Positions 3,873-38,015 of a stretch of DNA of 38,015 nt are shown here, in pieces; position 1 is the first letter of the stretch, and each line of letters opens with the position of its first letter. A model generated the notes under the pieces. That model worked only from the letters and a program-made list of their open reading frames with translations, did not search any database and was not told where the DNA came from. Source of the DNA: a virus. The stretch is taken from the IMG/VR virus record IMGVR_UViG_3300043783_000025, positions 1-38,015 of that record. One strand, given 5' to 3'. The position numbers were made by a program, and so were the translations under genes.

Positions 3873-3894
3873 TTCGCGGATTTCGTTTCCGTTC

Positions 3895-3911
3895 GCGCCC
3901 TGTGTGGGCGC
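3895..3911 (+). promoter_or_regulatory. Hairpin between scaffold and coat genes
   Basis: A perfect 6-bp stem, GCGCCC (3895-3900) with GGGCGC (3906-3911), closes a 5-base TGTGT loop. It ends directly before the GAGGTG ribosome-binding site (3914-3919) of the coat gene. There is no T-run after it, so it is not a typical terminator. It could affect mRNA stability or raise coat yield over scaffold; this is inference from position. Confidence 0.4.
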
Positions 3912-3926
3912 TGAGGTGCATCGCTC

Positions 3927-25942: not shown

Positions 25943-26334
25943 GCCAACTCCAACGCGAGTTCTGTCGCCGCGTACGCTTCCACTTGTCCCATATAGTGCG
26001 CGAACTCGCGCACCGTCAGCGTCGTGGTGCTGACCGGGAACATCTCCCCATGCGGGCCTTCGATCTTCGGCAGCAGCAGGCCGACGAAATGCGCGTGCCA
26101 CGCGTCTTTCGAGAACTGCTTGCCATCGACCCAAGCGGACGCTGCGATGTCCGCCAGCAGCGCCCAGTAGCGCCGGTTCTGCTCCTGCGAGCGCGTGGCT
26201 GCTTCGGTCGATAGATGCACGACCATCGGATGCGCGGACGCGGCCATCGCCTGCCAGTTTCCGCGAATCATGGCGAGCGCGCGCGCCAGGATCTTCTCGT
26301 CGCGCACGATGTAGGAGGCGGAGAACTCGCTCAC
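25939..26334 (-). CDS. NinB-like recombination protein
   Basis: A 131-residue protein starting at GTG 26334, which overlaps the ERF stop (GTGA). The NinB pattern is evident: LARALAMIRGNW near the start, RSQEQNRRYWALLADIA at about 48-64, KDAWHAHFVGLLLP at 76-89 and a late VREFAHYMGQVEAYAATEL. NinB (lambda Orf) acts as a recombination mediator with single-strand-binding protein. Its pairing with an ERF-type annealing protein supports a role in phage recombination and repair. A longer upstream frame exists but lacks support. Confidence 0.82.
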   Translation of the reverse strand: MSEFSASYIVRDEKILARALAMIRGNWQAMAASAHPMVVHLSTEAATRSQEQNRRYWALLADIAASAWVDGKQFSKDAWHAHFVGLLLPKIEGPHGEMFPVSTTTLTVREFAHYMGQVEAYAATELALELA

Positions 26335-27011
26335 GCTGCCGCCCTCGCGCGTGCGCTGGCGTTCTTCAATGCAGCGCGCGTCTTGCTGTTCGGGCCCAGC
26401 AGGCCCCACAGCGCCGTCTTCTGATCCGAGTCCAAGTTCTGCGCATCGATGTGCATCTGCGCGCCGCTCGCGTTGCCATCGGCCTCGACCATCTGCACCA
26501 CGTCGGCGGCCAGCTCGCGCAGCGCATCCATCTGCTCGGGCGGCAGATTCACGCCTCGCAGTGCATTCGGCACGGCAGCCACGCGGACCTCGTGCGTGGT
26601 CTGATCAGCATCGTTGTCGCCCTCGGTCGGGATTGAGAATGCCTGCATGCAGGCGTACTTGTAGGCGGCGCTCATCGCCTTGTTGGTGGCCTTGTCGCCG
26701 CTGTCCATCGCCTCGCCGAAAGTAACGACAGTGTGCTTGGATGCGTCATCGCTTGCAACGAAGTCGAATTCCATGTGCACGGTGACATAGAACAGCGCCG
26801 CGCCCTGCTTGCTCTCACGCTCGACGCACTCACGCGTCAGAACGCGCGGCAGGATGCACAGACCGTGCTTTGCCAGGAGCGGCGACAGGGCGTTGTAGAC
26901 CTCATCGATCCCGCGGAACTTGTAGCGCTGCTGCTCGTTCGTTCGATCCTTGCTGATCCCGGTCTTCGCCAGTTCGGCCTGCACTGCGTTGATCGCTTTG
27001 TAGACGCTCAT
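26331..27011 (-). CDS. ERF-family single-strand annealing protein
   Basis: A 226-residue protein with an AGGAAG ribosome-binding site. The family core is clear: VYKAINAVQAELAKTGISKD at the start, YKFRGIDEVYNALSPLLAKHG at 30-50 and GEAMDSGDKATNKAMSAAYKYA at 99-120. The C-terminal half is acidic then Ala-rich. P22 Erf has 204 residues. The family anneals complementary single strands and supports circularisation of permuted, terminally redundant genomes, which fits headful packaging here. It is followed at once by NinB. Confidence 0.88.
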   Translation of the reverse strand: MSVYKAINAVQAELAKTGISKDRTNEQQRYKFRGIDEVYNALSPLLAKHGLCILPRVLTRECVERESKQGAALFYVTVHMEFDFVASDDASKHTVVTFGEAMDSGDKATNKAMSAAYKYACMQAFSIPTEGDNDADQTTHEVRVAAVPNALRGVNLPPEQMDALRELAADVVQMVEADGNASGAQMHIDAQNLDSDQKTALWGLLGPNSKTRAALKNASARARAAA

Positions 27012-27053
27012 ATTCTTCCTGCTCCAAGGTGTCCTGCTGTTGTCGGTCGTCTG

Positions 27054-27290
27054 TCATCTACGATTCCCCATCCGATTCGATCCTTGCAGGCACAACGTCT
27101 GCGTCCCATCCTGCCGCACGAACGCGACCTCGCCCGGTTCGCACTTCTCGGCGGCAAGGCTCTGCACGGCCTTGGCGTCGCTGTAGGACGACCACGCGCC
27201 CATGCCGAATGCGGCCATCAGCATCAGCAGCGCGAAGGCCACGACGCCGAGCCAGGAGAGCTTGCGGTCTTCTTCGTCGAAGAGGGTCAT
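27054..27290 (-). CDS. Small membrane protein, 78 aa
   Basis: ATG 27290 overlaps the stop of the 47-residue gene before it (ATGA). One membrane span covers about residues 13-33 (WLGVVAFALLMLMAAFGMGAW). The periplasmic-side tail has two cysteines (about 50 and 67) and ends in a basic stretch. The short acidic N-terminus would stay in the cytoplasm. No family is recognised. Confidence 0.6.
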   Translation of the reverse strand: MTLFDEEDRKLSWLGVVAFALLMLMAAFGMGAWSSYSDAKAVQSLAAEKCEPGEVAFVRQDGTQTLCLQGSNRMGNRR

Positions 27291-27430
27291 GCCGTCTCTC
27301 CGGCTGTCAAGCCTTGCTGCGTCCTACTGGCTCGGCTTTCTTCCGCGATTGCTGTAGACGCTTCAGTCCTGCGGGCGACGGCATTCCCCCGCAAGCCGCA
27401 CTCTGTCCGCTGCCGCTGTGCCAAATTCAT
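27287..27430 (-). CDS. Small hypothetical protein, 47 aa
   Basis: A 47-codon frame that begins directly after the previous stop (TAAATG) and ends in an ATGA overlap with the following gene. A GAGGAG site lies upstream within the previous gene. The protein is Ala/Arg/Thr-rich and low in hydrophobic residues. Perfect packing and the ribosome-binding site are the only support; no domain is visible. Confidence 0.45.
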   Translation of the reverse strand: MNLAQRQRTECGLRGNAVARRTEASTAIAEESRASRTQQGLTAGETA

Positions 27431-27703
27431 TTAGAACCGCTCCTCAATCGATTGCAGGAATCCCGGCTGTCGTTCCTCCCGCCAGCACAGCCAATCTTTC
27501 AAATCCTCATCGGTATCGCGTCCGATCGCAGCAGAGGTCGCACGCATGACGGCGAATATGACGCCAACGTCCTGCTTGCCTTTGCACCGACCCAGCATCT
27601 CTTCGAAATTCCGATCGAAGCACTCAAAGAGGCGAGCATTGTTGACGTGGCGTCGCGTGTGCGTCCCTACGGCGAACAGCTTGCCGCAATGCGGACACTT
27701 CAC
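27431..27703 (-). CDS. Zinc-ribbon-like protein, 90 aa
   Basis: Starts at GTG 27703 (GTGA overlap). The first 30 residues carry CPHCG (C3, C6), two histidines (15, 19) and C28, consistent with a small zinc site. The rest is helical with an acidic DTDEDLKDWLCW stretch. It could bind nucleic acid or a host protein. No family name can be given. Confidence 0.6.
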   Translation of the reverse strand: MKCPHCGKLFAVGTHTRRHVNNARLFECFDRNFEEMLGRCKGKQDVGVIFAVMRATSAAIGRDTDEDLKDWLCWREERQPGFLQSIEERF

Positions 27704-27861
27704 TGCTGCCCATCCCGCTCATCCCTTCGGCGAACGTGCGCGAAGGTCAAAGCAATATTGACGGGCTCGTACAAGCTGTGCCACGGCGTCTCTTCGAGCC
27801 GATATTTCGGGCTCAGGACGTAGCTGTCTCCGAGGTATTGCTTCGCTTCTTCCAAGGTCAT
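27700..27861 (-). CDS. Small hypothetical protein, 53 aa
   Basis: A 53-codon gene with ATGA overlap at its start and GTGA overlap at its end. The protein begins MTLEEAKQYLGDSYVLSPKY and has a central HSLYEPVNIALTF and a basic-acidic tail. Small phage proteins of this type, with a YVL-x-P motif, recur in early operons. Function unknown. Confidence 0.55.
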   Translation of the reverse strand: MTLEEAKQYLGDSYVLSPKYRLEETPWHSLYEPVNIALTFAHVRRRDERDGQQ

Positions 27862-28085
27862 CTGTTGTTCACCACGAGCCGAAGCTTTGTCAATCTTTGG
27901 GCCGGAGTTTTCTTAACTACTACGACGCCATGAGGGAGACGTAATAGCTTGGCCCGAAGACGCGCGGCCTTACGGCTGATTCCACAGCCAGAGCAGGTAT
28001 CCGAGTACTGCCCTGGCACGCCAGTCGCCCAAGAGTGCGGCCCTTCGCTGAACCAAGACGGACACGGATCAAGATATTTCGGCAT
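27858..28085 (-). CDS. Small CxxC protein, 75 aa
   Basis: ATG 28085 is chosen over TTG 28091 because GGAG stands 7 bases upstream of the ATG. The first 40 residues contain C8, H17 and a CSGC pair (31, 34), a plausible zinc site, in the pattern of small phage zinc fingers. The C-terminal half is basic (RKAARLRAKLLRL). Overlaps its upstream gene by 17 bases and the next one by ATGA. Confidence 0.55.
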   Translation of the reverse strand: MPKYLDPCPSWFSEGPHSWATGVPGQYSDTCSGCGISRKAARLRAKLLRLPHGVVVVKKTPAQRLTKLRLVVNNR

Positions 28086-28392
28086 TTGCAAACTCCCGCC
28101 GAAACTCCGCCCCGCGCCTGGCCCCGATGCGCCGCTCCTCGCCGTCCCATTCGCCGAAGAGGACGATCACCATCGGACGCATCGAGCCGTCCTCGCGCTG
28201 GGCATGTGAAAGCCTCGCCCGATGGCAGCGACCGACGCGGGAGAGCTGGTTGAAGGCGCGGATGTCCCAGGCGTCGATGCTCTGCGTGTAGCGGACGTGC
28301 TGCTGATGCGGCAGGCGGGCGACTTGCGGCAGGTACGCGGCCCAGTCATCGGAGCCGGCTTCGATTGCGGCGGTGACGGCGGCGACGATCAC
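28069..28392 (-). CDS. Hypothetical protein, 107 aa
   Basis: GTG 28392 overlaps the preceding stop (GTGA). This start leaves a sensible protein: a helical start, a SDDWAAYLPQVARLPHQQHV segment, and a beta-rich end with MVIVLFGEWDGEERRIGARR. A longer frame to 28626 lies mostly antisense in style inside the upstream gene and is rejected. No family is recognised. Confidence 0.5.
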   Translation of the reverse strand: MIVAAVTAAIEAGSDDWAAYLPQVARLPHQQHVRYTQSIDAWDIRAFNQLSRVGRCHRARLSHAQREDGSMRPMVIVLFGEWDGEERRIGARRGAEFRREFANAEIS

Positions 28393-28799
28393 GCCGGCTC
28401 TCCGCGTTGCTCCTTCGCGCACTTGCGCAGATCGGCGAGCGCGCCCTCGGTCGAGTCGAAGAACCACGGCGCGGGCTGACCGGGCCTGGACGCCTCGTAG
28501 ATCAGCGTGCCGGCCATGTTCGGACCGAGCTTGTCCTGCAGCGCCTTGCCCTTCTCGCCGCCTAAATGGATCGCCCAGCCGGCGCGGCAGTGGGTCGTGC
28601 CGCACCATCCGCCTTCGCCATGCCAATCGCTCATGTCGAGCACGCCGCCGGACTCTATCGCGGCCAGGATCGTGTCGTCGATGTTCGGGATGACCGGGAT
28701 CTCGCTCGGGTCGATTTTCAAGGCGCCAGCGAGGCCGGCGCCAGCGAGGTTCGTCACCTGCGCGTCGCCCGTGAATCGATTCTTAATCTCGAATTTCAT
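28389..28799 (-). CDS. Conserved phage protein with HCRAGW motif, 136 aa
   Basis: Begins MKFEIKNRFTGDAQV, a start seen in several small phage proteins. The centre has LDMSDWHGE, then C66, and H70-C71-R72-A73-G74-W75, followed by IHLGG. The spaced Cys and His residues (H60, C66, H70, C71) may bind metal or form an active site. I recall this pattern from uncharacterised phage proteins but cannot name a family. Confidence 0.6.
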   Translation of the reverse strand: MKFEIKNRFTGDAQVTNLAGAGLAGALKIDPSEIPVIPNIDDTILAAIESGGVLDMSDWHGEGGWCGTTHCRAGWAIHLGGEKGKALQDKLGPNMAGTLIYEASRPGQPAPWFFDSTEGALADLRKCAKEQRGEPA

Positions 28800-28803
28800 G
28801 CGC

Positions 28804-29229
28804 TCACCTTCTCACGTCGAAATCTTCATATGAAAAATCCGTGTGCGGATGCGCCCGCTGCAGCCGCACATCGGCCCGCTCGCGCTCGATGCGCTCATGC
28901 TCGGGCCAGCACTTCGCGGCCAGCTCGAAGATGATGCCGAAGACGCAATCCTCGATCGACTCCGGATCGTCCATCGCCACGTCGTTGTCGAAGTAGGCGA
29001 GCGCGGCGCCATCGTCGGCCAGGGCTTCGACTTCGACGGCGACCATCGCGCCCCACTTCGGATCGGGCGTGGTTGGCGTCAGGCGGATGCGATAGCGGTG
29101 GGGCCCGTGGGAGAGGACGGAACCGTCGGTTATGAGGGACGGCGACGGCTGGACTTGCGATCCATGCGAAGGCTCAAGGGGATCAGGACCTAAACCCTCT
29201 ACCGTCCCCGAAAACTTGTCGGTGCTCAT
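28804..29229 (-). CDS. Acidic hypothetical protein, 141 aa
   Basis: ATG 29229 overlaps the previous stop (ATGA), so the longer frame to 29325 is not needed. The first 45 residues are Pro/Ser/Gly-rich. Then follow a beta strand region (HRYRIRLTPTT, AMVAVEVEAL) and an acidic helical end (DDPESIEDCVFGIIFELAAK). No catalytic motif is visible. It may act through protein contacts, judged by charge only. Confidence 0.5.
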   Translation of the reverse strand: MSTDKFSGTVEGLGPDPLEPSHGSQVQPSPSLITDGSVLSHGPHRYRIRLTPTTPDPKWGAMVAVEVEALADDGAALAYFDNDVAMDDPESIEDCVFGIIFELAAKCWPEHERIERERADVRLQRAHPHTDFSYEDFDVRR

Positions 29230-29654
29230 GGCCGCTTTCCTGCTTCCAGGATCGGCATGTTCGCTTCGGTCGGAACGTAGACGACTGTGTTGCCCTTGAT
29301 GTTGGAAGCCACATCCGTAATCCACAGATAGCGTAGGTACGCTTCGTTGGATTTGAGTGATTCACCGATGATCTGGTTGGCTTGGGCCACGCCTTTGGCG
29401 CGCGCAACCTCGGCGTTCGCGAGCAGTGAGGCGGAATCCATCTTCGCCTGCGCTTCCTGGACCGTGATGCGTCGATCCTGTTCGGCGCGCTTTAGAGCCG
29501 CTTCTCCTACAAGCCCTTGCTGCCACACGTTGTAGATCGGACAGCCCCACATACCGGCCAGAACGCATGCGAGAATCAGAAGGATCGGATCGCGGATCAG
29601 AGCGAACTTAGGATCTCCCGATGCGGTGAAATATCGACCGTCTACGTTGGCCAT
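29226..29654 (-). CDS. Membrane protein with SPFH/prohibitin-like tail
   Basis: A 142-residue protein from ATG 29654. A membrane span lies at about 20-37 (IRDPILLILACVLAGMWG). Residues 50-115 form an Ala/Glu-rich coiled coil that ends in AKGVAQANQIIGESLKSNEAYLRYLWI, followed by VVYVPTEANMPIL. This matches the end of stomatin/prohibitin/HflK-type proteins; the globular SPFH domain itself seems missing. Host HflKC controls the FtsH protease, so a contact with that complex is a reasonable hypothesis. An N-terminal extension to 29741 is open but unlikely. Confidence 0.6.
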   Translation of the reverse strand: MANVDGRYFTASGDPKFALIRDPILLILACVLAGMWGCPIYNVWQQGLVGEAALKRAEQDRRITVQEAQAKMDSASLLANAEVARAKGVAQANQIIGESLKSNEAYLRYLWITDVASNIKGNTVVYVPTEANMPILEAGKRP

Positions 29655-29658
29655 TTGC

Positions 29659-29796
29659 TCACCGCCCCAGCAGCACCCAGCGGATGAACTCGGTTTGCAG
29701 CCCGAGCGAGCGCAGGTAGTGGATAGCACGAGTACATCCATTGCGCAGCGTGGTCATCATGCTGCGGGCGAGGGAGACGATTTGGGCGAGGGTCAT
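29659..29796 (-). CDS. First leftward early gene, 45 aa
   Basis: A 45-codon frame with a clean AGGAG site (29809-29805) and a 30-base leader from the predicted leftward promoter. The protein is basic and helical (MTLAQIVSLARSMMTTLRNG, then AIHYLRSLGLQTEFIRWVLLGR). As the first product of the leftward operon it could be regulatory or a host take-over peptide. No family is recognised. Confidence 0.6.
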   Translation of the reverse strand: MTLAQIVSLARSMMTTLRNGCTRAIHYLRSLGLQTEFIRWVLLGR

Positions 29797-29832
29797 GGCG
29801 GTTTCTCCTGTGTGTGATGCTACTGTTTCGGC

Positions 29833-29861
29833 ATCCTATCCGCAGACTTGACGTTTGTCAA
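29833..29861 (-). promoter_or_regulatory. Leftward early promoter
   Basis: Read leftward: -35 TTGACA (29861-29856), 17-base spacer, -10 TAGGAT (29838-29833). The -35 is a perfect sigma-70 box. Predicted transcription starts near 29826, giving a leader of about 30 bases before the ATG at 29796. It abuts the rightward -35 box. Confidence 0.7.
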
Positions 29862-29876
29862 TTGACAATTGTCGAA
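29848..29876. promoter_or_regulatory. Tandem operator-like sites over both -35 boxes
   Basis: Two adjacent copies of the pattern TTGAC-N4-GTC: 29848-29861 (a perfect TTGAC-N4-GTCAA inverted repeat) and 29862-29876 (ending GTCGAA). The repeat period is 14 bases. Across their junction runs a 14-base perfect palindrome, TTGTCAATTGACAA (29855-29868), which holds both -35 boxes. A second palindrome, GACAATTGTC, lies at 29864-29873. Dimer binding here would block both promoters. The small helix-turn-helix protein at 29899 is the likely binder. Confidence 0.6.
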
Positions 29877-29890
29877 TGATTGCCTACCAT
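29862..29890 (+). promoter_or_regulatory. Rightward early promoter
   Basis: -35 TTGACA (29862-29867), 17-base spacer, -10 TACCAT (29885-29890). The predicted start falls at about 29896-29899, at or next to the ATG at 29899. The mRNA would therefore have almost no leader, and no ribosome-binding site is visible ahead of the ATG. Confidence 0.7.
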
Positions 29891-29898
29891 TTCGGCCT

Positions 29899-30045
29899 AT
29901 GGCACTGAAGCTGACCGAGGACCTTAAGCGGAAAATGCTGCGCTGGCGAGAACTTGGCATTCCGGACGCTGAAATTGCGCGTCGCGTTGGCAAGAGTCGG
30001 GAATGGGTCGGCCAGGCGCTCGGGCGCAAGAACGGGCGTAAGTGA
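29899..30045 (+). CDS. Small helix-turn-helix regulator candidate, 48 aa
   Basis: A 48-codon gene, too short for most gene finders. Residues about 20-42 (GIPDAEIARRVGKSREWVGQALG) read as a helix-turn-helix: helix, tight turn at the glycine, and a recognition helix. The basic ends suit DNA binding. It is the first rightward gene, directly downstream of the tandem operator-like sites, and probably translated from a leaderless mRNA like lambda cI from its maintenance promoter. Its stop overlaps the methyltransferase GTG (GTGA). A role as repressor or switch of the divergent operons is inferred. Confidence 0.65.
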   Translation: MALKLTEDLKRKMLRWRELGIPDAEIARRVGKSREWVGQALGRKNGRK

Positions 30046-31007
30046 CCACTTACGCTAACCGCTGCATGATCGGCGACTGCCGCGACTCGATGCGCCAGAT
30101 GATCGCCGACGGCGTGCGCGTGCAGATGTGTGTGACGAGCCCGCCGTATTGGGGCCTGCGGGACTACGGCTCGCCTGGTCAGATCGGCCTTGAGCCAACC
30201 ATCCGGGATTACGTCGATGCGATGGTCGGTGTGTTCGGCTTGGTGCGCGAGCTGCTGGCCGATGACGGAACAGTCTGGCTCAACTTAGGCGATTCCTACG
30301 CGCAAGTCGGCGGTCCTGGCTGGCAGGGAAAGAAAGAACAACGCGCCGATCGTAGATTCACCCTTGTGCGTGACACCGTTCCGATGCGCGAGATTGGCAG
30401 GAGGCCTCCCGACGGCTTGAAACCTAAGGATCTCATGATGATGCCAGCGCGCGTTGCTCTGGCGCTGCAGTCCGATGGCTGGTATGTGCGGCAGGACATC
30501 ATCTGGCACAAGCCCAATCCGATGCCAGAGTCCGTGACCGACCGCTGCACCAAGGCGCACGAGTATCTTTTCCTGTTGAGCAAATCGGAGCGGTACTACT
30601 TCGACGCCGATGCGATCAGCGAACCAGTCAACGGTAACGCGCACAGTCGCGGCAATGGCGTCAATCCCAAAGCCGCTGTTGGCGAAATCGGCCGCGAAAA
30701 GCAGAACGCGTCTTTTTCCGTTGCAGTGCGCGAACTGGTCTCGCGCCGTAACAAGCGTTCGGTCTGGACCATCGCCAGCGACCCGTACTCGGGTGCCCAC
30801 TTCGCCACATTCCCGCCCGCACTGGTCGAGCCGTGCATCCTGGCCGGCTCACGTGCAGGCGACGTCGTGCTCGATCCATTCTTCGGAAGCGGCACCGTGG
30901 GCGAGGTCGCGCAGCGCCTGGGACGCAAATGGATCGGCTGCGATCTGCAGAAAGCGTACGCACCGCTACAGGCTCGCAGGACGGCGCAGCAAGGATTCGA
31001 GCTGTAG
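30042..31007 (+). CDS. DNA methyltransferase, N4-cytosine/N6-adenine type
   Basis: A 321-residue SAM-dependent enzyme starting at GTG 30042. Motif IV is TSPPYWGLRDYG (residues 32-43), where SPPY favours N4-cytosine but also occurs in N6-adenine enzymes. Motif I is DPFFGSGTVG (278-287) near the C-terminus, so the motif order is IV then I, as in the beta class. No restriction endonuclease is adjacent, so it is an orphan enzyme. Protection of phage DNA from host restriction is the usual role. The target site cannot be read from the sequence. Confidence 0.88.
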   Translation: MTTYANRCMIGDCRDSMRQMIADGVRVQMCVTSPPYWGLRDYGSPGQIGLEPTIRDYVDAMVGVFGLVRELLADDGTVWLNLGDSYAQVGGPGWQGKKEQRADRRFTLVRDTVPMREIGRRPPDGLKPKDLMMMPARVALALQSDGWYVRQDIIWHKPNPMPESVTDRCTKAHEYLFLLSKSERYYFDADAISEPVNGNAHSRGNGVNPKAAVGEIGREKQNASFSVAVRELVSRRNKRSVWTIASDPYSGAHFATFPPALVEPCILAGSRAGDVVLDPFFGSGTVGEVAQRLGRKWIGCDLQKAYAPLQARRTAQQGFEL

Positions 31008-31017
31008 CGTAAACCGG

Positions 31018-31060
31018 TTGACTGTCCCCGTTGTCAAGGCGGACACTTCAGGCGGATAAT
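31018..31060 (+). promoter_or_regulatory. Second rightward promoter with TTGAC/GTCAA inverted repeat
   Basis: -35 TTGTCA (31031-31036), 18-base spacer, -10 GATAAT (31055-31060), in the 157-base gap after the methyltransferase. An inverted repeat TTGAC (31018-31022) and GTCAA (31033-31037), 10 bases apart, overlaps the -35. The half sites match those at 29848-29876 but with wider spacing. Predicted transcripts would have a leader of about 98 bases before 31165. Confidence 0.5.
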
Positions 31061-31164
31061 CCGGGTAGCGGGGACGCAGGGACATCCGGCCGGCCGCCGT
31101 CGGACTGCCCTGAACGGTCCTTACCTGCTTACCCGCCCGCTTTTCGGCTTTCAGGGAGTCGCCC

Positions 31165-31356
31165 ATGTCCAGCCTTTCGGCTCTTCCCGTCTTCATCCCC
31201 GGCCGCCCGTACACGGCGCTGGCCGATCGACCGCGGGCTTTGCATCTTCTCCGAGTGGCTGAGTTCCTGTGGGACGACGCGCATCCGGAGCCGGCGCCGG
31301 GCGAGCGGGCCCAGGCGTTTGCGGTGATGGCGCAGCGGCTGGGGGTGGCGGCGTGA
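31165..31356 (+). CDS. Small hypothetical protein, 63 aa
   Basis: Preceded by an AGGGAG ribosome-binding site. The protein has a short Pro-containing N-terminus (LPVFIPGRPYTALADRPR) and two helices after it (ALHLLRVAEFLWDDA and GERAQAFAVMAQRL). It comes before the HNH gene and overlaps its GTG (GTGA). No domain is recognised. Confidence 0.55.
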   Translation: MSSLSALPVFIPGRPYTALADRPRALHLLRVAEFLWDDAHPEPAPGERAQAFAVMAQRLGVAA

Positions 31357-31844
31357 GCACCTACAGCGAGAAGCTACGCGATCCGCGGTGGCAGCGGCGA
31401 CGGCTGGAGAAGCTGCAGAAGGCGGATTTCCACTGCGAGAGTTGTTCCGATGGGAAATCAACCCTGCATGTGCACCATCGGATTTATCGCAAAGGTGCTG
31501 ATCCTTGGGAGTACACGGACAAGGAACTTGTTGTGCTGTGCGAGTCCTGCCACGACGATGAACACAGGACCGAGCAGCTCATGCGTGAAGCGATTTGCGC
31601 GGTTGATCGACATTTTTACGACCCCAGCATCGTTACACTTCTCGTTAGCGGCTACTGCTTAGCGACTCTGCCGCCATATTTCCGAACTCGGGCGCACGTC
31701 GAATTTTTCGTCGACATCGCAAGGAAACTATCCGAAGAAGGCGAGAGAGACGAATTCTTCCTTGCCGGCTTTATGGCCGGATCGGGCCTGCCCTCGGCCG
31801 ATCCGTACAAGGCCGCGATAGCCGAAGCGGTCGTACTTCCATAA
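31353..31844 (+). CDS. HNH-type protein
   Basis: A 163-residue protein from GTG 31353. The N-terminus YSEKLRDPRWQRRRLEKL and the following C28-x2-C31, LHVHH (H41, H42) and LCESCHDDEH (C63, C66, H67, H71) are the HNH nuclease core with a structural zinc. The C-terminal half (about 75-163) is a helical extension without a known domain. Many phages carry this short HNH type near replication or packaging genes. It may be a free-standing homing or recombination nuclease; there is no intron nearby. Confidence 0.8.
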   Translation: MSTYSEKLRDPRWQRRRLEKLQKADFHCESCSDGKSTLHVHHRIYRKGADPWEYTDKELVVLCESCHDDEHRTEQLMREAICAVDRHFYDPSIVTLLVSGYCLATLPPYFRTRAHVEFFVDIARKLSEEGERDEFFLAGFMAGSGLPSADPYKAAIAEAVVLP

Positions 31845-32696
31845 ATGCCAAACCGCTACGTGCGCGACGCCTGCTTGGACAGCGACCACTACCATGCGGT
31901 CGGTCTGACAGGCAGGCTGGCATTCCTGGAGCTGCTGCTGAACTGCGATGACTTCGGCCTAGTGCCGGTGCATCGCGTCTTCCTGCAGCGCAAAACGACC
32001 GTGTTCGTCGGCCTGAGCCCGGAAGCGATCGGCGCTGAGCTGCTGTCCATGGACCAAGCGGACCTGATCCGCTGTTACACGGTCGGATCGAGCCCATTTG
32101 CCTACGTTCCCCGTAATGGCTTTGTCATCCGTGCAAAGCGCCCAAAGTATCCGCTCCCCGATTTTTCAGCACCCCACAACCGCACAAGATTCAAAGAGTT
32201 AGCGGAAATCTGCTATGCACGTGCGCTACACATACGCCCGACTTCGACTTCGACTTCGACTTCGACTTCGACTTCGACAGGTAAAGACATGTCGCCGTCT
32301 CCAGCCAGCGGCCCGGAAAATCAGCAACCGGCCGAACTCGAGCTGGCCCTGGCGGGGCCCCAGTCGGCCGCTTTGGCCGACTGCCCAGCCGACGCAATCC
32401 TGCAGCTTTTCCAGCGCGTGATCCCGGAAAGCCCGCGCACCGTGATCCTGAACGAGCGCCGGCGCGCCGCCCTACGGCTTCGATGGAAGGAGCTCGCCAA
32501 GATGCGCGGCTATGTCACGCGCGCGCAGGGTCTGGCGGAGTGGGAACGCCTGTTCGAGTTCTGCCGAGAGTCGGCTTTCCTAATGGGCAAAACCAAGCCA
32601 TCGAACGGCCACCGCCCGTTCGAACTATCGATCGACTTCCTGCTGCAACCTGCTCGCTTCATCGACACCATCGAGGGCAAATACCATGGCTCGTAG
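31845..32696 (+). CDS. Replication initiator-like protein (lambda O-like architecture)
   Basis: A 283-residue protein that follows the HNH stop directly (TAAATG). The N-terminal 115 residues look like a winged-helix DNA-binding domain of phage replication proteins (RYVRDACLDSDHYHAV, LAFLELLLNCDDFGLV, FVIRAKRPKYPLPDF). A (Thr-Ser)6 linker at about 133-144 leads to a C-terminal helical domain with LRLRWKELAK and SIDFLLQPARFIDTIEGKY, often seen in helicase-loading partners. There is no phage helicase or polymerase, so it likely recruits the host replisome. Confidence 0.7.
   Translation: MPNRYVRDACLDSDHYHAVGLTGRLAFLELLLNCDDFGLVPVHRVFLQRKTTVFVGLSPEAIGAELLSMDQADLIRCYTVGSSPFAYVPRNGFVIRAKRPKYPLPDFSAPHNRTRFKELAEICYARALHIRPTSTSTSTSTSTSTGKDMSPSPASGPENQQPAELELALAGPQSAALADCPADAILQLFQRVIPESPRTVILNERRRAALRLRWKELAKMRGYVTRAQGLAEWERLFEFCRESAFLMGKTKPSNGHRPFELSIDFLLQPARFIDTIEGKYHGS
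32241..32276 (+). repeat. Six ACTTCG hexamers inside the replication gene
   Basis: Six perfect tandem copies of ACTTCG encode the (Thr-Ser)6 linker. The unit is in frame, so slippage would change linker length without breaking the gene. In lambda-like phages, origin repeats lie within gene O, so this could also be part of an origin; the flanking 32160-32215 region is somewhat AT-rich. Confidence 0.9.
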
Positions 32697-33144
32697 ACCA
32701 TACGGACAGACGGCGCAGAACCCATTCATCGCACCCGATTCGCAGTACCGATGCGCAGTCCCGGATTGCACCGCTCACGGCGTATGGTCGCCTACCCTGA
32801 ACGGCTCGATCTGGTACTGCCGGCAGCACTCCGATCCAAAGTTGCCGGATCCGCCACAGCGTTGGGAGCCAAATGGGCGGGAACGCACGTCGGCGGAGAT
32901 TTTGGCGGCGCGGGCCACGCTTGCCGATTTCGCCGCATCGGGGGCGATCCAGCTCGAGCCGCCCTCAGACGCGTGGTGGCATCGCCTTCTCCAGCGCTGG
33001 CGCGACGGTGAGCAATTACTCCTGGTGCAGCGCGAGATGGTGACGCGCGCGTGGAGCAACTCCGGCCGCCCATCCGACTGGACCCCGCCCGACATCGAAG
33101 CCCAGCTTGAGCGCGAAGCGATCCAAGCCGAGGGCGTACCATGA
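32686..33144 (+). CDS. Zinc-binding hypothetical protein, 152 aa
   Basis: Starts inside the end of the replication gene. The N-terminal 50 residues have C23-x4-C28 and C45-x2-H48, a likely zinc finger (YRCAVPDCTAHG, then WYCRQH). The rest is helical (SAEILAARATLADFAAS, then WWHRLLQRWRDGEQLLLVQREM). It could be a DNA- or RNA-binding accessory of replication. No family name is known to me. Confidence 0.6.
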   Translation: MARRPYGQTAQNPFIAPDSQYRCAVPDCTAHGVWSPTLNGSIWYCRQHSDPKLPDPPQRWEPNGRERTSAEILAARATLADFAASGAIQLEPPSDAWWHRLLQRWRDGEQLLLVQREMVTRAWSNSGRPSDWTPPDIEAQLEREAIQAEGVP

Positions 33145-33368
33145 CCGAGGACTGGAACGAGAAGCCACCCAATGCGGCTGAGCTTCGCACTGCGCGCCGC
33201 CTTCAAAACTTCGGCGAATCCAACGAGCCAGCGGACTGGCCGCGCAGCGCTCGTCTTTTCACTGCCGAGCAAGAGGATCACATCCGAGAGATGATCGAAA
33301 AGGCCGTCGATGCAGCGGTCGAGGAGTTGCGTGACCGGATCGAATCGGCGCTTGGGATGCGCCCATGA
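33141..33368 (+). CDS. Small hypothetical protein, 75 aa
   Basis: ATGA overlap with both neighbours. An acidic N-terminus leads to a helical C-terminal half (about 42-72, AEQEDHIREMIEKAVDAAVEELRDRIESAL) that could form a coiled coil. No signal or membrane segments. Function unknown. Confidence 0.5.
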   Translation: MTEDWNEKPPNAAELRTARRLQNFGESNEPADWPRSARLFTAEQEDHIREMIEKAVDAAVEELRDRIESALGMRP

Positions 33369-33484
33369 TTCTGCTTCGCATCCTGCGCTCCTTCCGCCGC
33401 TGGCGTGAGCTCGGCTGCTCCCGCCGCGTCGCGCTCGAGGCCGCTCTGGTGTGTGCCAAGTTCGACGCGCCCAGGCCCAGATGA
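33365..33484 (+). CDS. Basic micropeptide, 39 aa
   Basis: A 39-codon frame starting and ending in ATGA overlaps (33365-33368 and 33481-33484). Arginine-rich with an amphipathic helix (MILLRILRSFRRWRELG). Coupling to both neighbours is the only support. It could act as a small nucleic-acid or membrane-binding peptide; this is speculation. Confidence 0.45.
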   Translation: MILLRILRSFRRWRELGCSRRVALEAALVCAKFDAPRPR

Positions 33485-33651
33485 ACGCATTCCAGCTCGA
33501 GCAGGTACGCGCCGACATCCTGCACATGGTCGAATTCATCGATCGGCTGCGCGAACACGGCGCCACCGAACAGCAGATGCAGGCGGTGCGCGAAGAGGTT
33601 GCACGCCTGAAGATGCGCGCTGCGATTGCTGTGGCTGCGGACACGCGCTGA
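33481..33651 (+). CDS. Small coiled-coil protein, 56 aa
   Basis: From ATG 33481 (ATGA overlap) to a TGATG overlap with the nuclease gene. Nearly all helical with heptad character (QLEQVRADILHMVEFIDRL and EQQMQAVREEVARLKM). Perhaps a dimerising partner of a neighbour. A longer frame to 33451 is open but less well placed. Confidence 0.5.
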   Translation: MNAFQLEQVRADILHMVEFIDRLREHGATEQQMQAVREEVARLKMRAAIAVAADTR

Positions 33652-33932
33652 TGCGCCACCTTCACCGCGTCGACGCCAATCAAGCCGCCATCGTCGAAGC
33701 CCTGCAGCGCGCCGGCTGCACGACGCTGAGCCTCACGTCGATCGGCCAGGGCTGCCCCGACCTGCTCGTCGCCCGCGCTGGCGTGAACTACTTGCTGGAG
33801 CTTAAGGCCGACAGCGAGCTCGCCCAGTCGCAGATCGCATGGATCAACGCTTGGAACGCGAAAGTCCACGTTGTGCGCAGCGTCGACGAAGCCCTCACCG
33901 CAGTGGGCCTGGCAAAACCTCCGAACCGGTAG
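33651..33932 (+). CDS. VRR-NUC-like nuclease
   Basis: A 93-residue protein with the compact PD-(D/E)xK core: CPDLLVAR (P36, D37), then YLLELKAD with E50-x-K52, and Q61 in the following AQSQIAWINAW helix. The first helix has E16. Stand-alone VRR-NUC proteins of this size occur in phages and can act on branched or nicked DNA. It lies near the replication gene, which supports a DNA-processing role such as junction resolution. It starts at the TGATG overlap at 33651. Confidence 0.75.
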   Translation: MRHLHRVDANQAAIVEALQRAGCTTLSLTSIGQGCPDLLVARAGVNYLLELKADSELAQSQIAWINAWNAKVHVVRSVDEALTAVGLAKPPNR

Positions 33933-33938
33933 CGCAAA

Positions 33939-33957
33939 GGCGGATATCATTTCCGCC
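33939..33957 (+). promoter_or_regulatory. Hairpin just before the 33959 start codon
   Basis: GGCGGA (33939-33944) pairs with TCCGCC (33952-33957) around a 7-base loop, and the GTG start follows after one base. The left arm includes the only ribosome-binding-like sequence (AAAGGCGG). The structure could hide or reposition that site. No T-run, so not a terminator. Confidence 0.4.
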
Positions 33958-33958
33958 C

Positions 33959-34219
33959 GTGACTCCGCCACCGGCCCCGCTGCACACCTTCGGCGAAATC
34001 GCGGTCATCATCGACCACACGACCACGCACCGGCCGTTTTCCTCGCGCGAGTTCATCTTCCGCGTTCGCACGCCATCGAAGGACAGTTCCCTGGTCAAGG
34101 TCTACCGCATCGAGATCCTGGACGCCGAAATCGCCGACATGACCGAGCGCCAGATCGCCGAATTCCTGCTGCGTGGTCCGCGCCGCAAGTCGCTGCTTTT
34201 CACCTACCGCGAGCCCTGA
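33959..34219 (+). CDS. Small beta-rich hypothetical protein, 86 aa
   Basis: GTG 33959 is chosen because the reading frame upstream overlaps the nuclease gene. The protein has strands FGEIAVIIDHTT, REFIFRVRT and VKVYRIEILDAEI and a helix (MTERQIAEFLLRG). No family is recognised. The unusual hairpin before the start may control it. Stop overlaps the next ATG (TGATG). Confidence 0.5.
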   Translation: MTPPPAPLHTFGEIAVIIDHTTTHRPFSSREFIFRVRTPSKDSSLVKVYRIEILDAEIADMTERQIAEFLLRGPRRKSLLFTYREP

Positions 34220-34416
34220 TGCCGCTGCGCTGCATCGGCTGCGGCGAACACTTCGCATCCGGCGAGGCTTTCGACCTGCATGCCACCGGCAAACGTCGAC
34301 CGGAGCGCGACGCACCAAAGCGCTGCCGCACGCCGGAGGAAATGCGCGCCCTCGGCATGAACCAGACGCCTGGCAACCACGCCTGGCGCATGAAGCCGCG
34401 CAATGGCAGCCGATGA
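34219..34416 (+). CDS. Small zinc-finger protein, 65 aa
   Basis: C5-x2-C8, H21 and C36 form a C2HC-like pattern (LRCIGCGEHF, FDLHATGKR). The C-terminal half is basic (PERDAPKRCRT, NHAWRMKPRNG). This is a recurring phage zinc-finger type whose C-terminus often carries TPEEM and MN-x-TPG segments. Probable nucleic-acid binder; no direct evidence. Confidence 0.6.
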   Translation: MPLRCIGCGEHFASGEAFDLHATGKRRPERDAPKRCRTPEEMRALGMNQTPGNHAWRMKPRNGSR

Positions 34417-34540
34417 GATCATCATCGCCCTCACCGTCGGCGCCATCGCCGTCTTCGGCATCGCCGTCCTCGTGCTCGTGGCGATCTGGCTGCCGCCGTT
34501 TCTTCGCCGAATATGGGAGCGCGATGACGATGAAGAGTGA
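34403..34540 (+). CDS. Single-span membrane protein, 45 aa
   Basis: Overlaps the preceding gene by 14 bases. One membrane span at about 6-30 (IIIALTVGAIAVFGIAVLVLVAIWL), then PPFLRRIWERDDDEE. The basic then acidic tail suggests a cytoplasmic C-terminus. The stop overlaps the GTG of the next gene (GTGA). Function unknown. Confidence 0.6.
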   Translation: MAADEIIIALTVGAIAVFGIAVLVLVAIWLPPFLRRIWERDDDEE

Positions 34541-34755
34541 CCACTTGCGCGTCCGAGTCAATGGGCATAGGCTTCGCGCCTACCGTCAAAAAAATCTTAA
34601 GCCAAATGCCAGAACGCCATCGTGGTGAACCGCTGTCCAAGTTCATCGGCAGGTTTGTCGGCAGCAAGCGCGAGCAGAAATACCCGATCAAGCAGCGCCT
34701 TGCGATCGGTTATTCCGAAGCGAGACAGCAAGCGAAGAAGGAGCGTCGAGCATGA
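34537..34755 (+). CDS. Small conserved basic protein, 72 aa (start uncertain)
   Basis: From GTG 34537 (GTGA overlap) to ATGA overlap at 34755. The body, EPLSKFIGRFVGSKREQKYPIKQRLAIGYSEARQQAKK, has the KYP-x-KQRLAIGYSEAR pattern I recall from phage proteins of unknown role. The first 20 residues look unlike the rest, and an internal ATG at 34609 is another possible start. A 34-codon frame from 34524 overlaps in another frame through a run of seven A (34588-34594). Confidence 0.55.
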   Translation: MTTCASESMGIGFAPTVKKILSQMPERHRGEPLSKFIGRFVGSKREQKYPIKQRLAIGYSEARQQAKKERRA

Positions 34756-34937
34756 GCAAGCGTGACGAGCGCGGCGAGTCGCGCGCCCAGCCGAACCAAC
34801 GGTTGCCCAAGGGCCACTTCACGGATGACGGCCTGAGCGAAGGCGCGCAAACCGGCTGCGTGCGGCGCTCCCCCGACGCCTACCAAGGCCCGCGGCCAGA
34901 AGGCGGCGAGTCGTCCATGCCGAAGGAGAAGAGCTGA
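34752..34937 (+). CDS. Small hydrophilic protein, 61 aa
   Basis: ATGA overlap at the start, TGATG at the end. Very polar (MSKRDERGESRAQPNQRLPKG) and Gly/Pro-rich, so probably disordered. No family. Confidence 0.45.
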   Translation: MSKRDERGESRAQPNQRLPKGHFTDDGLSEGAQTGCVRRSPDAYQGPRPEGGESSMPKEKS

Positions 34938-35203
34938 TGCCACGCGACCAGGCCGGCCGGCCGCAGGAAACCCTGAAGATGCCAGCCGCCAGCAAGGTGG
35001 CTCCGGATTCAACGGCCACGTCCGCCCATTGCCCGCACTGCTCCGAGCACCGCGACCGCTTGGACACGATCGAAAAGCACCTGGGCCTTACCCACAAGGC
35101 CGATGGGATGAAATCCGAGGACCAAGCCGGCAGCGGGAAGACGGAAAGCGCCGGCAAGGTGACGGAGAAGGCTGGCGCGAGTTACGGGCGGAAACGCCAT
35201 TAA
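34937..35203 (+). CDS. Small zinc-binding-like protein, 88 aa
   Basis: TGATG start. C32-x2-C35-x2-H38 (HCPHCSEH) followed by HLGLTH resembles half of a zinc finger; the tail is Lys/Glu/Gly-rich and disordered-looking. Probably nucleic-acid or protein binding. It is the last gene before the structured 35204-35568 region. Confidence 0.5.
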   Translation: MPRDQAGRPQETLKMPAASKVAPDSTATSAHCPHCSEHRDRLDTIEKHLGLTHKADGMKSEDQAGSGKTESAGKVTEKAGASYGRKRH

Positions 35204-35269
35204 AACCGGGGACAGACAGTGGGGGGCCACTACCACATCAACCGGGCCGCGAAAATCGATTCTGGGCGG

Positions 35270-35288
35270 CTTCCTGGCCTCCAGGAAG
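35270..35288 (+). promoter_or_regulatory. Hairpin covering a ribosome-binding site
   Basis: A perfect 8-bp stem, CTTCCTGG (35270-35277) with CCAGGAAG (35281-35288), closes a 3-base loop. The right arm contains AGGAAG, the only ribosome-binding-like sequence for the ATG at 35291. The hairpin would block initiation unless opened, for example by a protein or upstream ribosomes. Confidence 0.5.
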
Positions 35289-35290
35289 GC

Positions 35291-35569
35291 ATGTACAGCG
35301 TCCCACAGACAGCGCACAGCGTGCGTACTGCGGCCGGTAAGGGGTACATAGCCACCCAACCCAGTGCCCTGTCCACGCGCACTGGAAATCATTCCGCGCC
35401 GTCTAGCGCTCGCCGCACCGGCCTGAACCGCAAGCCGAAGCGAGCCCTGAAGCCAGTCGAGATCCGCGAGGTCTTGGCGCTTGTGAAACTTTGCGTTTCA
35501 CAGCGCCGTCCTCATCTTCGGCGAATGCACGATATTTCAATCACTTGGGGACGAACGAGCAGGTTCTGA
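35291..35569 (+). CDS. Possible protein of 92 aa, uncertain
   Basis: An open frame from ATG 35291 that ends in a TGATG overlap with the GroES-like gene, the operon's usual junction. Composition is basic (SSARRTGLNRKPKRALKPVEIREV), and no domain is recognised. A GTG at 35219 would extend it to 116 residues. The alternative is that 35204-35568 is a non-coding structured region; the start lies inside a hairpin context and another strong hairpin lies within the frame. Confidence 0.35.
   Translation: MYSVPQTAHSVRTAAGKGYIATQPSALSTRTGNHSAPSSARRTGLNRKPKRALKPVEIREVLALVKLCVSQRRPHLRRMHDISITWGRTSRF
35476..35507 (+). promoter_or_regulatory. Strong 13-bp hairpin upstream of the GroES-like gene
   Basis: GGCGC-T-TGTGAAAC (35476-35489) pairs with GTTTCACA-GCGCC (35495-35507) with one bulged T and a 5-base loop TTTGC. 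It is among the longest near-perfect stems I noticed. It lies 62 bases before the ATG at 35569. No T-run follows, so rather than a terminator it may be a processing site, stability element or protein-binding site. Confidence 0.5.
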
Positions 35570-36060
35570 TGGGCGTCCGTACAACTTCCGGCCGATCTGC
35601 CGAGCTTTCCTGGGATTCGGTCACACGCATCCCGGCCGATTACGCGATCCGCTGCCGGCGCGACTACCTGATCGTCGAGCCGCGGAAGGTGGATCACCGC
35701 GTGAGCTTTGAGGTCATCGAGTACACCAAGCCGCTGCGCGGGATCGTGAAGGCGGTCGGGCCAGGCTGCTATCCGAAGCGCTATGACCACCCGGACAAGC
35801 ACCGGCGCACCAAGACTTGGGACAGCAAGACCTTCCTGCCGACGCAGGTCAAGGTCGGCGATGTCGTGGAGCTGGGCGGCTATGAGTACGGCGGGTATGC
35901 GTTTCAGACGTTCCTGTGGGGCGACGTGCTGCATCTGATCTGCCGGGAGCTCGACGTGTCAGGCGTGGTTGACCCGGACGAGGATGACGAGGACGACACC
36001 GCGCAGCTGGACCAGCCGGATCTGGCGCGGTTCGATGAGCCGGCGGAGAGCCGGGCATGA
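35569..36060 (+). CDS. GroES-like (Cpn10-fold) protein
   Basis: A 163-residue protein. Residues 31-132 follow the co-chaperonin pattern: DYLIVEP, then LRGIVKAVGPGCYP, a loop of about 20 residues, VKVGDVVELGGYEYGG and WGDVLHLICRELDVSGVV. This is the DRVLV, GIVVAVGPG, VKVGD and EDILAVL framework. The 30-residue N-terminal extension and the acidic tail (about 135-163) are not in standard GroES. It precedes terminase and coat genes. P22-type coats fold with GroEL, so a phage co-chaperonin for coat folding is plausible, but not shown. Confidence 0.65.
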   Translation: MGVRTTSGRSAELSWDSVTRIPADYAIRCRRDYLIVEPRKVDHRVSFEVIEYTKPLRGIVKAVGPGCYPKRYDHPDKHRRTKTWDSKTFLPTQVKVGDVVELGGYEYGGYAFQTFLWGDVLHLICRELDVSGVVDPDEDDEDDTAQLDQPDLARFDEPAESRA

Positions 36061-36278
36061 AGGTCAAGCCGACGTTGATGCTGAGCATGCACTGCCCGGA
36101 AGGGCGGGCGATGGTGCAAGTCGGCTTGGACGACCTCACGGAGCCCGAGCGCGCGTGGCTCTTCGACAAGCTCAAGAAAGCCGAAAAGGGCCGATCGATC
36201 AGCTTCGGCGTCGATAGCGAGGGCGACGCGCAGATCATCAAGTTCACGCTGGGGGCAACAGCCGAGGCGGTGACATGA
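36057..36278 (+). CDS. Small hypothetical protein, 73 aa
   Basis: ATGA overlaps on both sides. The protein has strands and helices in alternation (VKPTLMLSMHC, MVQVGLDDLTEPERAWLFDKLKKA, SISFGVD, QIIKFTLG). No family is recognised. It sits between the GroES-like gene and the terminase genes. Confidence 0.5.
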   Translation: MKVKPTLMLSMHCPEGRAMVQVGLDDLTEPERAWLFDKLKKAEKGRSISFGVDSEGDAQIIKFTLGATAEAVT

Positions 36279-36610
36279 ATGGCACCATCGGCCTGCGCTC
36301 CAAGAATGCGGTCGTACTACCGATACCGATTCCGGGGCCCGCGGCCTTATCACCCGACGAGCTGATGAATGCGTCCGACGGAACGCATCCGGAGGAATCC
36401 GTCAATATCCCCCCGTCCTGGACAAAGGGCCAGCTCCTGAACGTGCGCAACCGTGGCGAGTTCTATGTCATCACGCTCCTGGGCGAGGAAGATGAGCCGC
36501 CGCTGAAGCCAGCGCCGAGCGGCGCGCTGCGGTTCACCAACACCGCGCTATGCCAGGACTTCGTGAGCCGCTGGTACGCGCGCGAGCACTACGACCCGAG
36601 GGCGCGCTGA
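36275..36610 (+). CDS. Hypothetical protein, 111 aa
   Basis: Starts at an ATGA overlap and ends at TGATG with the small terminase gene. The N-terminal 50 residues are Pro-rich; then a beta part (QLLNVRNRGEFYVITLLGEE) and a helical end (TALCQDFVSRWYAREHYD). No domain is recognised. Confidence 0.5.
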   Translation: MNGTIGLRSKNAVVLPIPIPGPAALSPDELMNASDGTHPEESVNIPPSWTKGQLLNVRNRGEFYVITLLGEEDEPPLKPAPSGALRFTNTALCQDFVSRWYAREHYDPRAR

Positions 36611-36960
36611 TGGCTGGCAACTGGAATTCGGGCGGTCGAGCGCCGCCTCCTGCCAAGCCTGGCCCTGGCCGCCCGGCAGGAACGCCGAACAAAATCGGCG
36701 CGCAGGTCAAAGAGAACTTAATCGATGTGTTCGAACTGCTAGGCGGGAAGATCGCCATGACAGAATGGGCACGTGAAAATAGGACTGAGTTCTACAAGCT
36801 CTACGCGCGGCTGATGCCGACGCAAGTGATGGCCACGGTGGAATTCCGAGATGCAAGTGAATACAGCGATGCTGAGCTCGTGCGCTTTATCGCCAGCGCA
36901 AGCGGCGCAGGAGCTGCTGGCCAGGAGACAGGCGGCGAGGTCCCTGACAGCGTTCATTGA
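36610..36960 (+). CDS. Terminase small subunit
   Basis: A 116-residue protein from ATG 36610 (TGATG overlap). It begins with a basic Gly/Pro-rich motif (PGPGRPAGTPNK) typical of many terminase small subunits and related phage proteins, followed by a helical core (VKENLIDVFELLGGKIAMTEWA, TEFYKLYARLMP). It recognises the packaging start and feeds DNA to the large subunit. The last 110 bases overlap the large terminase start. The identification relies on position and the basic motif. Confidence 0.7.
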   Translation: MAGNWNSGGRAPPPAKPGPGRPAGTPNKIGAQVKENLIDVFELLGGKIAMTEWARENRTEFYKLYARLMPTQVMATVEFRDASEYSDAELVRFIASASGAGAAGQETGGEVPDSVH

Positions 36961-38015
36961 GTATCTGGACCTGGGATTCGCGCCGGCCAAGCATCATCTG
37001 CTGTTGATAGAGCACCTGGAGGCGGTTGAGCGCGGCGACATTGAAAGGTTGATGGTGCTGATGCCGCCGGGCAGCGCCAAGAGCACGTATGCTTCTGTAC
37101 TGTTTCCGCCCTGGTTCCTCGGCTGCGAGCCGCAAGCCGCAGTGCTGGGTTGTTCCAACACGTCGGACCTGGCCGAGCGCTTCAGCCGGCGGGCCCGCAA
37201 CATCGTCGACAGCCAGCGCTACCGCAACGTCTTCGGCTTCGGCCTGTCCGAGTTCGCACAAGCCTCCAGCAACTGGGAAACCGCCTCCGGAGCCGAATTC
37301 TTCGCTGCTGGCGTCGGTACCGGCATTGCAGGCCGCCGTGCTGACCTGGGACTGATCGATGATCCGGTCAAATCTCGCGAGGAAGCCGACAGTGACCGGT
37401 TCCGGCAGAAGCAGTGGGAGTGGTACGTCAACGACTTCCTGCCGCGGCTCAAGCCGGGCGCGCGGCAGATCCTCATACAAACTCGATGGCACGAAGACGA
37501 TCTTGGGGGGCGGATCCTGGAACGGGAAGCCGCTCGGTGGACTGTTGTAAAGCTGCCAATGGTCGCGCGCGCCTCCGATCCCCTTGACCGCCAGCCAGGC
37601 GAGCGCCTGTGGCCGGAGTGGTTCACCGAGGAAATGGTGGAGCAGGCCAAACTCGATCCGCGTGCGTGGAATGCGCTCTACCAGCAGGATCCGGCGCCCG
37701 AAGATGGCGACTTTTTCCAGCGGGACGACTTCAACGACTACATCGATCTGCCAAAGCAATTGCACTTTTACGGCGCCTCCGACTACGCGGTGAGCGAAGG
37801 CGAGGGCGACTACACCGAGCACGGAATTTTCGGGCTCGACTTCAACGGCGACCTGTACGCGATCGACTGGTGGCGCGAGCAAGCCAAGAGCGATGTCTGG
37901 ATTGAGCGGCAATGCGACCTGATCGCGCGCTATAAACCGCTCATCTGGTTCGGCGAGTCCGGGCCGATCAAGCGGGCCATTGAGCCATTCCTGCGCAAGC
38001 GCATGCAGGAGCGCG
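36851..38015 (+). CDS. Terminase large subunit, N-terminal part (continues at 1)
   Basis: Open to the window end and continued at base 1, giving 488 residues in total. The ATPase domain has a Walker A-like PPGSAKST (72-79), a Walker B strand ending in DD (LGLIDD, 166-171) and an ATPase coupling segment near QTRWHEDD (210-217). The RNase H-like nuclease starts at about residue 306 (FYGASDYAV, D311). It cuts and pumps concatemer DNA into the procapsid. ATG 36851 is used; ATG 36869 is an alternative. The frame overlaps the small terminase gene. Confidence 0.93.
   Translation, partial: MQVNTAMLSSCALSPAQAAQELLARRQAARSLTAFIEYLDLGFAPAKHHLLLIEHLEAVERGDIERLMVLMPPGSAKSTYASVLFPPWFLGCEPQAAVLGCSNTSDLAERFSRRARNIVDSQRYRNVFGFGLSEFAQASSNWETASGAEFFAAGVGTGIAGRRADLGLIDDPVKSREEADSDRFRQKQWEWYVNDFLPRLKPGARQILIQTRWHEDDLGGRILEREAARWTVVKLPMVARASDPLDRQPGERLWPEWFTEEMVEQAKLDPRAWNALYQQDPAPEDGDFFQRDDFNDYIDLPKQLHFYGASDYAVSEGEGDYTEHGIFGLDFNGDLYAIDWWREQAKSDVWIERQCDLIARYKPLIWFGESGPIKRAIEPFLRKRMQER
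37889..38015. repeat. Terminal direct repeat, right copy (circle overlap)
   Basis: Identical to bases 1-127. The coding frame of the large terminase passes through this repeat in register, which confirms that the ends join. Because of it, any count of genome length should subtract 127 bases. Confidence 0.95.

Follow-up and report, generated by a model that had tools for sequence, protein, structure and literature searches.

The early control region and its neighbors

The window analyzed here, a virus record of 38,015 bp, begins and ends with the same 127 bp (positions 1–127 and 37889–38015). Because of this terminal direct repeat, the window most likely represents a complete, circularly closed genome; the record was probably cut inside the large terminase gene. 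A P22-like portal gene occupies positions 574–2772, and its nearest counterpart among GenBank phages is that of Xanthomonas phage PBR31 (36.5%). The leftward early genes include those for a 45-aa protein, a protease/SPFH-like membrane protein, an Erf annealing protein, and NinB; the rightward early genes include those for a DNA methyltransferase, an HNH protein, and a replication protein. The locus was compared with L002 (IMGVR 3300021559_000022), L059 (3300050821_001186, also G002), and L087 (3300021171_000033, contig G003). Its features are as follows:

29226–29654, minus strand: protease/SPFH-like membrane protein (phrog_11227), second leftward gene
29659–29796, minus strand: 45-aa protein, first gene of the leftward early operon, with SD AGGAG
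29797–29898, no strand assigned: divergent control region, 102 bp, between the 45-aa leftward gene and the HTH gene, aligned across four phages
29812–30040, no strand assigned: putative exchangeable regulator-operator cassette, ~230 bp, bounded by the limits of DNA similarity to G002
29833–29861, minus strand: leftward early promoter, −35 TTGACA (29861–29856), N17, −10 TAGGAT (29838–29833), with its start expected at 29826–29828
29848–29861, plus strand: operator-like dyad 1, TTGACGTTTGTCAA, which holds the leftward −35 box; same in L002; L087 counterpart TTTACATCCGTCAA
29855–29868, no strand assigned: 14-bp perfect palindrome, TTGTCAATTGACAA, product of the two abutting −35 boxes
29862–29875, plus strand: operator-like dyad 2, TTGACAATTGTCGA, which holds the rightward −35 box; same in L002; L087 counterpart TTGACTTCTGTAAA
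29862–29890, plus strand: rightward early promoter, −35 TTGACA (29862–29867), N17, −10 TACCAT (29885–29890), with its start predicted from spacing at 29896–29899
29899–30045, plus strand: 48-aa HTH protein, the proposed repressor, without an SD and probably leaderless; three helices at 7–18, 23–30, and 34–41
30042–31007, plus strand: orphan N4/N6 DNA methyltransferase, passenger of the rightward operon, overlapping the HTH stop by GTGA

Divergent promoters and operator-like dyads

The original prediction had placed two sigma-70 promoters here, with −35 boxes touching inside a 14-base perfect palindrome. Direct reading and a scan both confirmed them at their positions, as two of the three promoter-like sites in 26000–38015. 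In 1500 Markov shuffles of the 102-bp region, promoters this good never appeared on both strands. In the four-phage alignment the motif GCCGA, directly 3′ of the leftward −10, is common to the window, L087, and L059; its presence there in all of the phages compared supports the assignment of the leftward promoter. The central palindrome was considered as a separate operator and dropped, because it is lost in L087, where the dyads stand 9 bp apart; TTGTCAATTGACAA is therefore probably a by-product of the abutting boxes.

Two 14-bp dyads, TTGACgtttGTCAA and TTGACaattGTCGA, lie in the control region. Dyad 1 is the sole perfect TTGAC-N4-GTCAA in the 38 kb, and dyad 2 departs from this pattern by one mismatch. 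The tandem TTGAC-N4-GTC sites with a 14-base period that had been proposed are present as placed, and are better described as 14-bp dyads. Not one of 20,000 Markov-shuffled versions of the region had two such dyads, a count in which the −35 boxes, half of each dyad, are not discounted; a looser, rough conditional estimate that discounts them is ~1e-3 for the window and also ~1e-3 for L087. A search with the operator sequence TTGACNNNNGTCAATTGACNNNNGTC across viral contigs returned only the L002 contig and two chance matches inside ORFs for SMC-like ATPases. No Rfam match was found in the window. As a set of sequence features, the compact divergent control region with tandem operator-like sites was borne out.

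Two other features of this region were noted. A 13-bp near-repeat, CTACTGTTTCGGC at 29820–29832 and CTACCATTTCGGC at 29884–29896 (85%), gives the rightward −10 and the bases 3′ of it a likeness to the stretch where the leftward transcript would start. Two CAATTG sites (29859–29864 and 29866–29871) fall within the operator-like dyads, near the methyltransferase gene.

The small HTH gene

The ATG of the HTH gene lies 8 nt past the rightward −10, and of the 46 gene starts in the window only this one and one other lack an SD match of at least 3 nt at −20 to −4. The gene has 48 codons and no SD-like triplet, in agreement with the original description of a small HTH protein without a ribosome-binding site. 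Spacing predicts that the rightward transcript starts at or next to this ATG. A short gap between the −10 and the ATG recurs in L002 (8 nt) and L087 (6 nt), which supports the prediction of a probably leaderless first gene; in L059 the gap is 18 nt with the best promoter, and a leaderless geometry is not clear. A longer reading of the gene from a TTG at 29869 (58 aa) was rejected, because its start codon precedes the −10, so that a transcript from this promoter could not encode it.

Apart from one 3-nt indel, 20 bases separate the HTH gene from that of L002; third codon positions account for 17 of them and first positions for 3. Because the substitutions fall almost only at third positions, this comparison indicates that the ORF is a real, translated gene. 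A three-helix HTH fold was predicted for the protein (pLDDT 79), and the best Foldseek E value was 0.32. Its sole Pfam match was to the homeodomain-like HTH_23, at 20.0 bits and thus under the curated cut-off of 24.6 bits; no Sigma70_r4 or CRP/FNR domain match was found in Pfam. The recognition helix is CRP-like (48% over 23 residues), and the protein more distantly resembles sigma region 4 (38% over 37 aa to the L059 HTH protein). Matches to sigma proteins in the PDB were due to the presence of L059 in the alignment and were gone once it was removed, so this line of likeness was abandoned. We conclude that the protein is a generic three-helix HTH, and that its resemblances to CRP and sigma do not make it a member of either family. 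When viral and bacterial genome collections were searched with it, L002 was the only viral match and the rest were generic HTHs; no cultured phage with this HTH was found. No dimerization region is visible in the 48 aa, yet a 14-bp dyad calls for two monomers.

Comparison with related phages

L002 shares 88% DNA identity with the window over 29656–30054. In the 66-bp core at 29833–29898 there is 1 difference, whereas the flanking genes differ at 20 of 138 positions (45-aa gene) and 23 of 150 (HTH gene), or ~14% around the core. The core appears to be under purifying selection or constraint; a recombined tract may account for part of the low divergence, since few changes fall in the first third of the HTH gene as well. 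The gene joined to the HTH gene through GTGA has been exchanged: it is the methyltransferase in the window and in L059, and in the L002 region 1797–4135 an SNF2-type helicase (named by reading its motifs rather than by a family search) takes the methyltransferase's place and is followed by another methyltransferase, unrelated to that of the window.

DNA similarity to L059 extends to 29811, is then interrupted, and returns at 30041, within the methyltransferase gene, with 82–83% on either side. The intervening L059 block encodes a 54-aa protein that is a lone Sigma70_r4 domain (3.8e-10; 39.6 bits vs. a cut-off of 24.1); among the window, L002, L087, and L059, a match above this cut-off was found in L059 alone. 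Its small HTH gene again overlaps the methyltransferase gene by GTGA. TTGACA occurs twice in the block, in direct orientation and pointing leftward, at a distance of ~12 bp; a clear N4 dyad is absent. Most of the 61 relatives of the L059 protein are longer (sigma factors, HNH-type, and others), and this layout is absent from them.

L087 resembles the window in Erf (93–95%) and the 45-aa gene (89%); the HTH proteins are 38% identical, and DNA similarity ends at 29814. Its promoters are TTGACG-N17-CAGAAT (leftward) and TTGACT-N17-TAAGAT (rightward), and its dyads, TTTACATCCGTCAA and TTGACTTCTGTAAA, are again of the 5-4-5 type with one −35 box in each. These dyads fit TTKAC-N4-GTMAA twice; the only other match to that pattern in the 33.9 kb of L087, a third TTGAC-N4-GTCAA, was set aside as an operator because it is inside a tail-spike ORF. 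No methyltransferase follows the L087 HTH gene. Because this contig has left early genes near-identical to those of the window and no portal homolog was found in it, early and structural modules appear to be shuffled between these phages.

Proposed matching of regulator and operators

In both L059 and L087 the regulator and the control sites have been replaced together while the flanking genes stay. This joint swap between conserved flanks is what chiefly leads us to pair the dyads with the small HTH protein. We think it probable, though well short of certain, that the ~230-bp block with its promoters, operators, and HTH gene is a self-contained exchangeable cassette, in which the 48-aa HTH would be the cognate repressor of both dyads. 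A further comparison points the same way. The recognition helix reads SREWVGQ, with an Arg-Glu pair, in the window and L002, and TRARVGQ in L087, a change of Glu to Ala. The half-sites that do not serve as −35 boxes are TTGAC and TCGAC in the window, and both are TTTAC in L087, with the third base changed and the fifth kept. In sigma-70 the corresponding residues are E585, which reads base three of TTGACA, and R584, which reads base five; E585Q relaxes recognition of base three (PMC2613000). The apparent covariation of HTH residue and site base is a second, weaker reason for the matching; it is one contrast, and the alignment with sigma is by helix similarity.

We infer the transcription starts, leaderless translation, binding, stoichiometry, and repression in the following scheme. 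Upon infection, host sigma-70 RNA polymerase would start both early operons, from back-to-back promoters that could not be fully occupied at once. The rightward mRNA would begin at the HTH start codon or a few bases from it, so that the repressor would be produced first, probably from a leaderless message, and the coupled downstream gene next. As the HTH protein accumulated, two monomers would bind each TTGAC-N4-GTCAA dyad; because each dyad includes the −35 box of one promoter, binding would block polymerase at both. The leftward early genes and the HTH protein's own operon would then be turned down. The protein is thus most likely an autorepressor of the Cro or C-protein kind that shuts both early promoters.

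Alternative explanations

The cassette exchange between conserved flanks is also the classic pattern of an immunity region, and leaderless cI messages are known (PMC4488713). The HTH protein could therefore be a CI-like, prophage-maintenance repressor of a temperate phage kept without a recognized integrase, either plasmid-like or through an unrecognized or host recombinase. We consider this unlikely. The complete genome gave no match to Phage_integrase, Resolvase, HTH_3 (PF01381 at E ≤ 0.1), or S24, a result to be read with the many small window proteins that have no assignment; a CI partner is not recognizable, and the HTH protein is the one regulator found, with no second regulator or maintenance promoter. 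Furthermore, the HTH gene heads the very early operon that such a repressor would need to silence. Because of these negative searches a lysogeny switch is unsupported, and the phage appears to be non-integrating. The compact control region and small HTH protein of the original prediction stand, but its switch, in which a 48-residue regulator would replace a CI/Cro pair, is not supported: one regulator was found, and nothing points to two stable states. Negative-feedback shut-off of the Cro or C-protein kind fits better.

FNR boxes are 5-4-5 dyads of the form TTGAT-N4-ATCAA, and the window dyads share this geometry. A host regulator of the CRP/FNR type might bind them, tying early phage transcription to host physiology, with the small HTH protein doing something else. 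From the coordinates, the center of each far dyad lies ~41–44 bp away from where the other promoter is predicted to start transcription, the distance of a class II activator, and because the HTH protein's own recognition helix is CRP-like, the type of site alone does not name the binder. This reading is nonetheless quite improbable to us: it leaves unexplained both the TTTAC change exactly where the phage HTH changes and the joint replacement of sites and HTH between conserved flanks, and the two −35 boxes, which match the consensus, have no need of an activator. Least of all do we expect the HTH protein to be a controller of the downstream methyltransferase, in the manner of restriction-modification C proteins. 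The GTGA overlap of the two genes speaks for such a role, as do the tandem dyads in the gene's own promoter together with a predicted leaderless mRNA; tandem operators and a leaderless mRNA are C-protein features (PMC4824078). However, the almost identical L002 HTH gene precedes a helicase, with only an unrelated methyltransferase further on, the L087 gene precedes no methyltransferase, no paired endonuclease was identified, and the protein is not an HTH_3 member. Its mode of action may resemble that of C proteins; its association is not with the methyltransferase.

A doubtful extension of the autorepressor reading takes these small proteins for free-standing mimics of the sigma domain that recognizes the −35 box. 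Their recognition helix would read the TTGAC of that box itself, and a second TTGAC, inverted and four bases away, would complete the operator. It is equally speculative that the 54-aa protein of L059, an outright Sigma70_r4 domain, would play this part there. If the mimicry were real, the repressor would compete with sigma for the same bases, and one added 5-base half-site would make any consensus promoter repressible.

Likeness to known systems

The locus shares with lambdoid Cro and early operator regions a small early HTH protein, divergent promoters under operators, and the swapping of regulator and operators between conserved flanks; the divergent early promoters overlapped by operators are present as sequence features. 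It differs from them in that the protein has 48 aa, has no HTH_3 domain, and lacks a detected CI partner or integrase, and in that the −35 boxes abut, one inside each operator-like dyad. Like type II restriction-modification C proteins, for which leaderless transcripts are common (PMC4824078), the small HTH protein heads its operon, with two operator-like dyads in tandem in its own promoter; a leaderless mRNA is predicted for it. Unlike those systems, the window has an HTH protein that is not HTH_3, dyads that also cover a divergent early promoter, and a downstream gene that varies between phages; no linked endonuclease/methyltransferase pair was found, the window methyltransferase being an orphan and the downstream genes of L002 and L087 being others. 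In PY54, cI and cro are likewise phage regulators expressed from divergent promoters on leaderless mRNAs (PMC4488713); PY54 differs in that it has CI as well as Cro and forms a lysogenic plasmid prophage, and its Cro binds a single operator, OR3. Because PY54 cI/cro and C proteins have leaderless mRNAs, one for a regulator is not unusual in itself. Sigma-70 region 4.2 and the CRP/FNR helices share the Arg-Glu pair that opens the recognition helix and TTGA-type half-sites, whereas the phage proteins are free-standing and 48–54 aa long.

The kind of system is therefore known; what is new is its small size and the operators that embed the −35 boxes. If the autorepressor reading is correct, 48 residues without a visible dimerization domain and ~100 bp of DNA would suffice for the early divergent circuit of a phage, and immunity-like specificity cassettes would be exchanged also in phages that appear not to lysogenize. 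The block would provide a minimal divergent repressor part and a natural case of an operator and a −35 box sharing bases.

Repeats outside the control region

A perfect hexanucleotide microsatellite (CGACTT, 6.7 copies) at 32239–32278, inside the replication-protein gene, encodes a Thr-Ser repeat and is a possible slippage site. The counterpart in L002 of the gene region at window positions 28389–28799, which has no such array, contains a 15-bp tandem array of 22.7 copies of GGCGCCAGCGAGGTT (L002 positions 236–575) that appears to be a rapidly expanding repeat.
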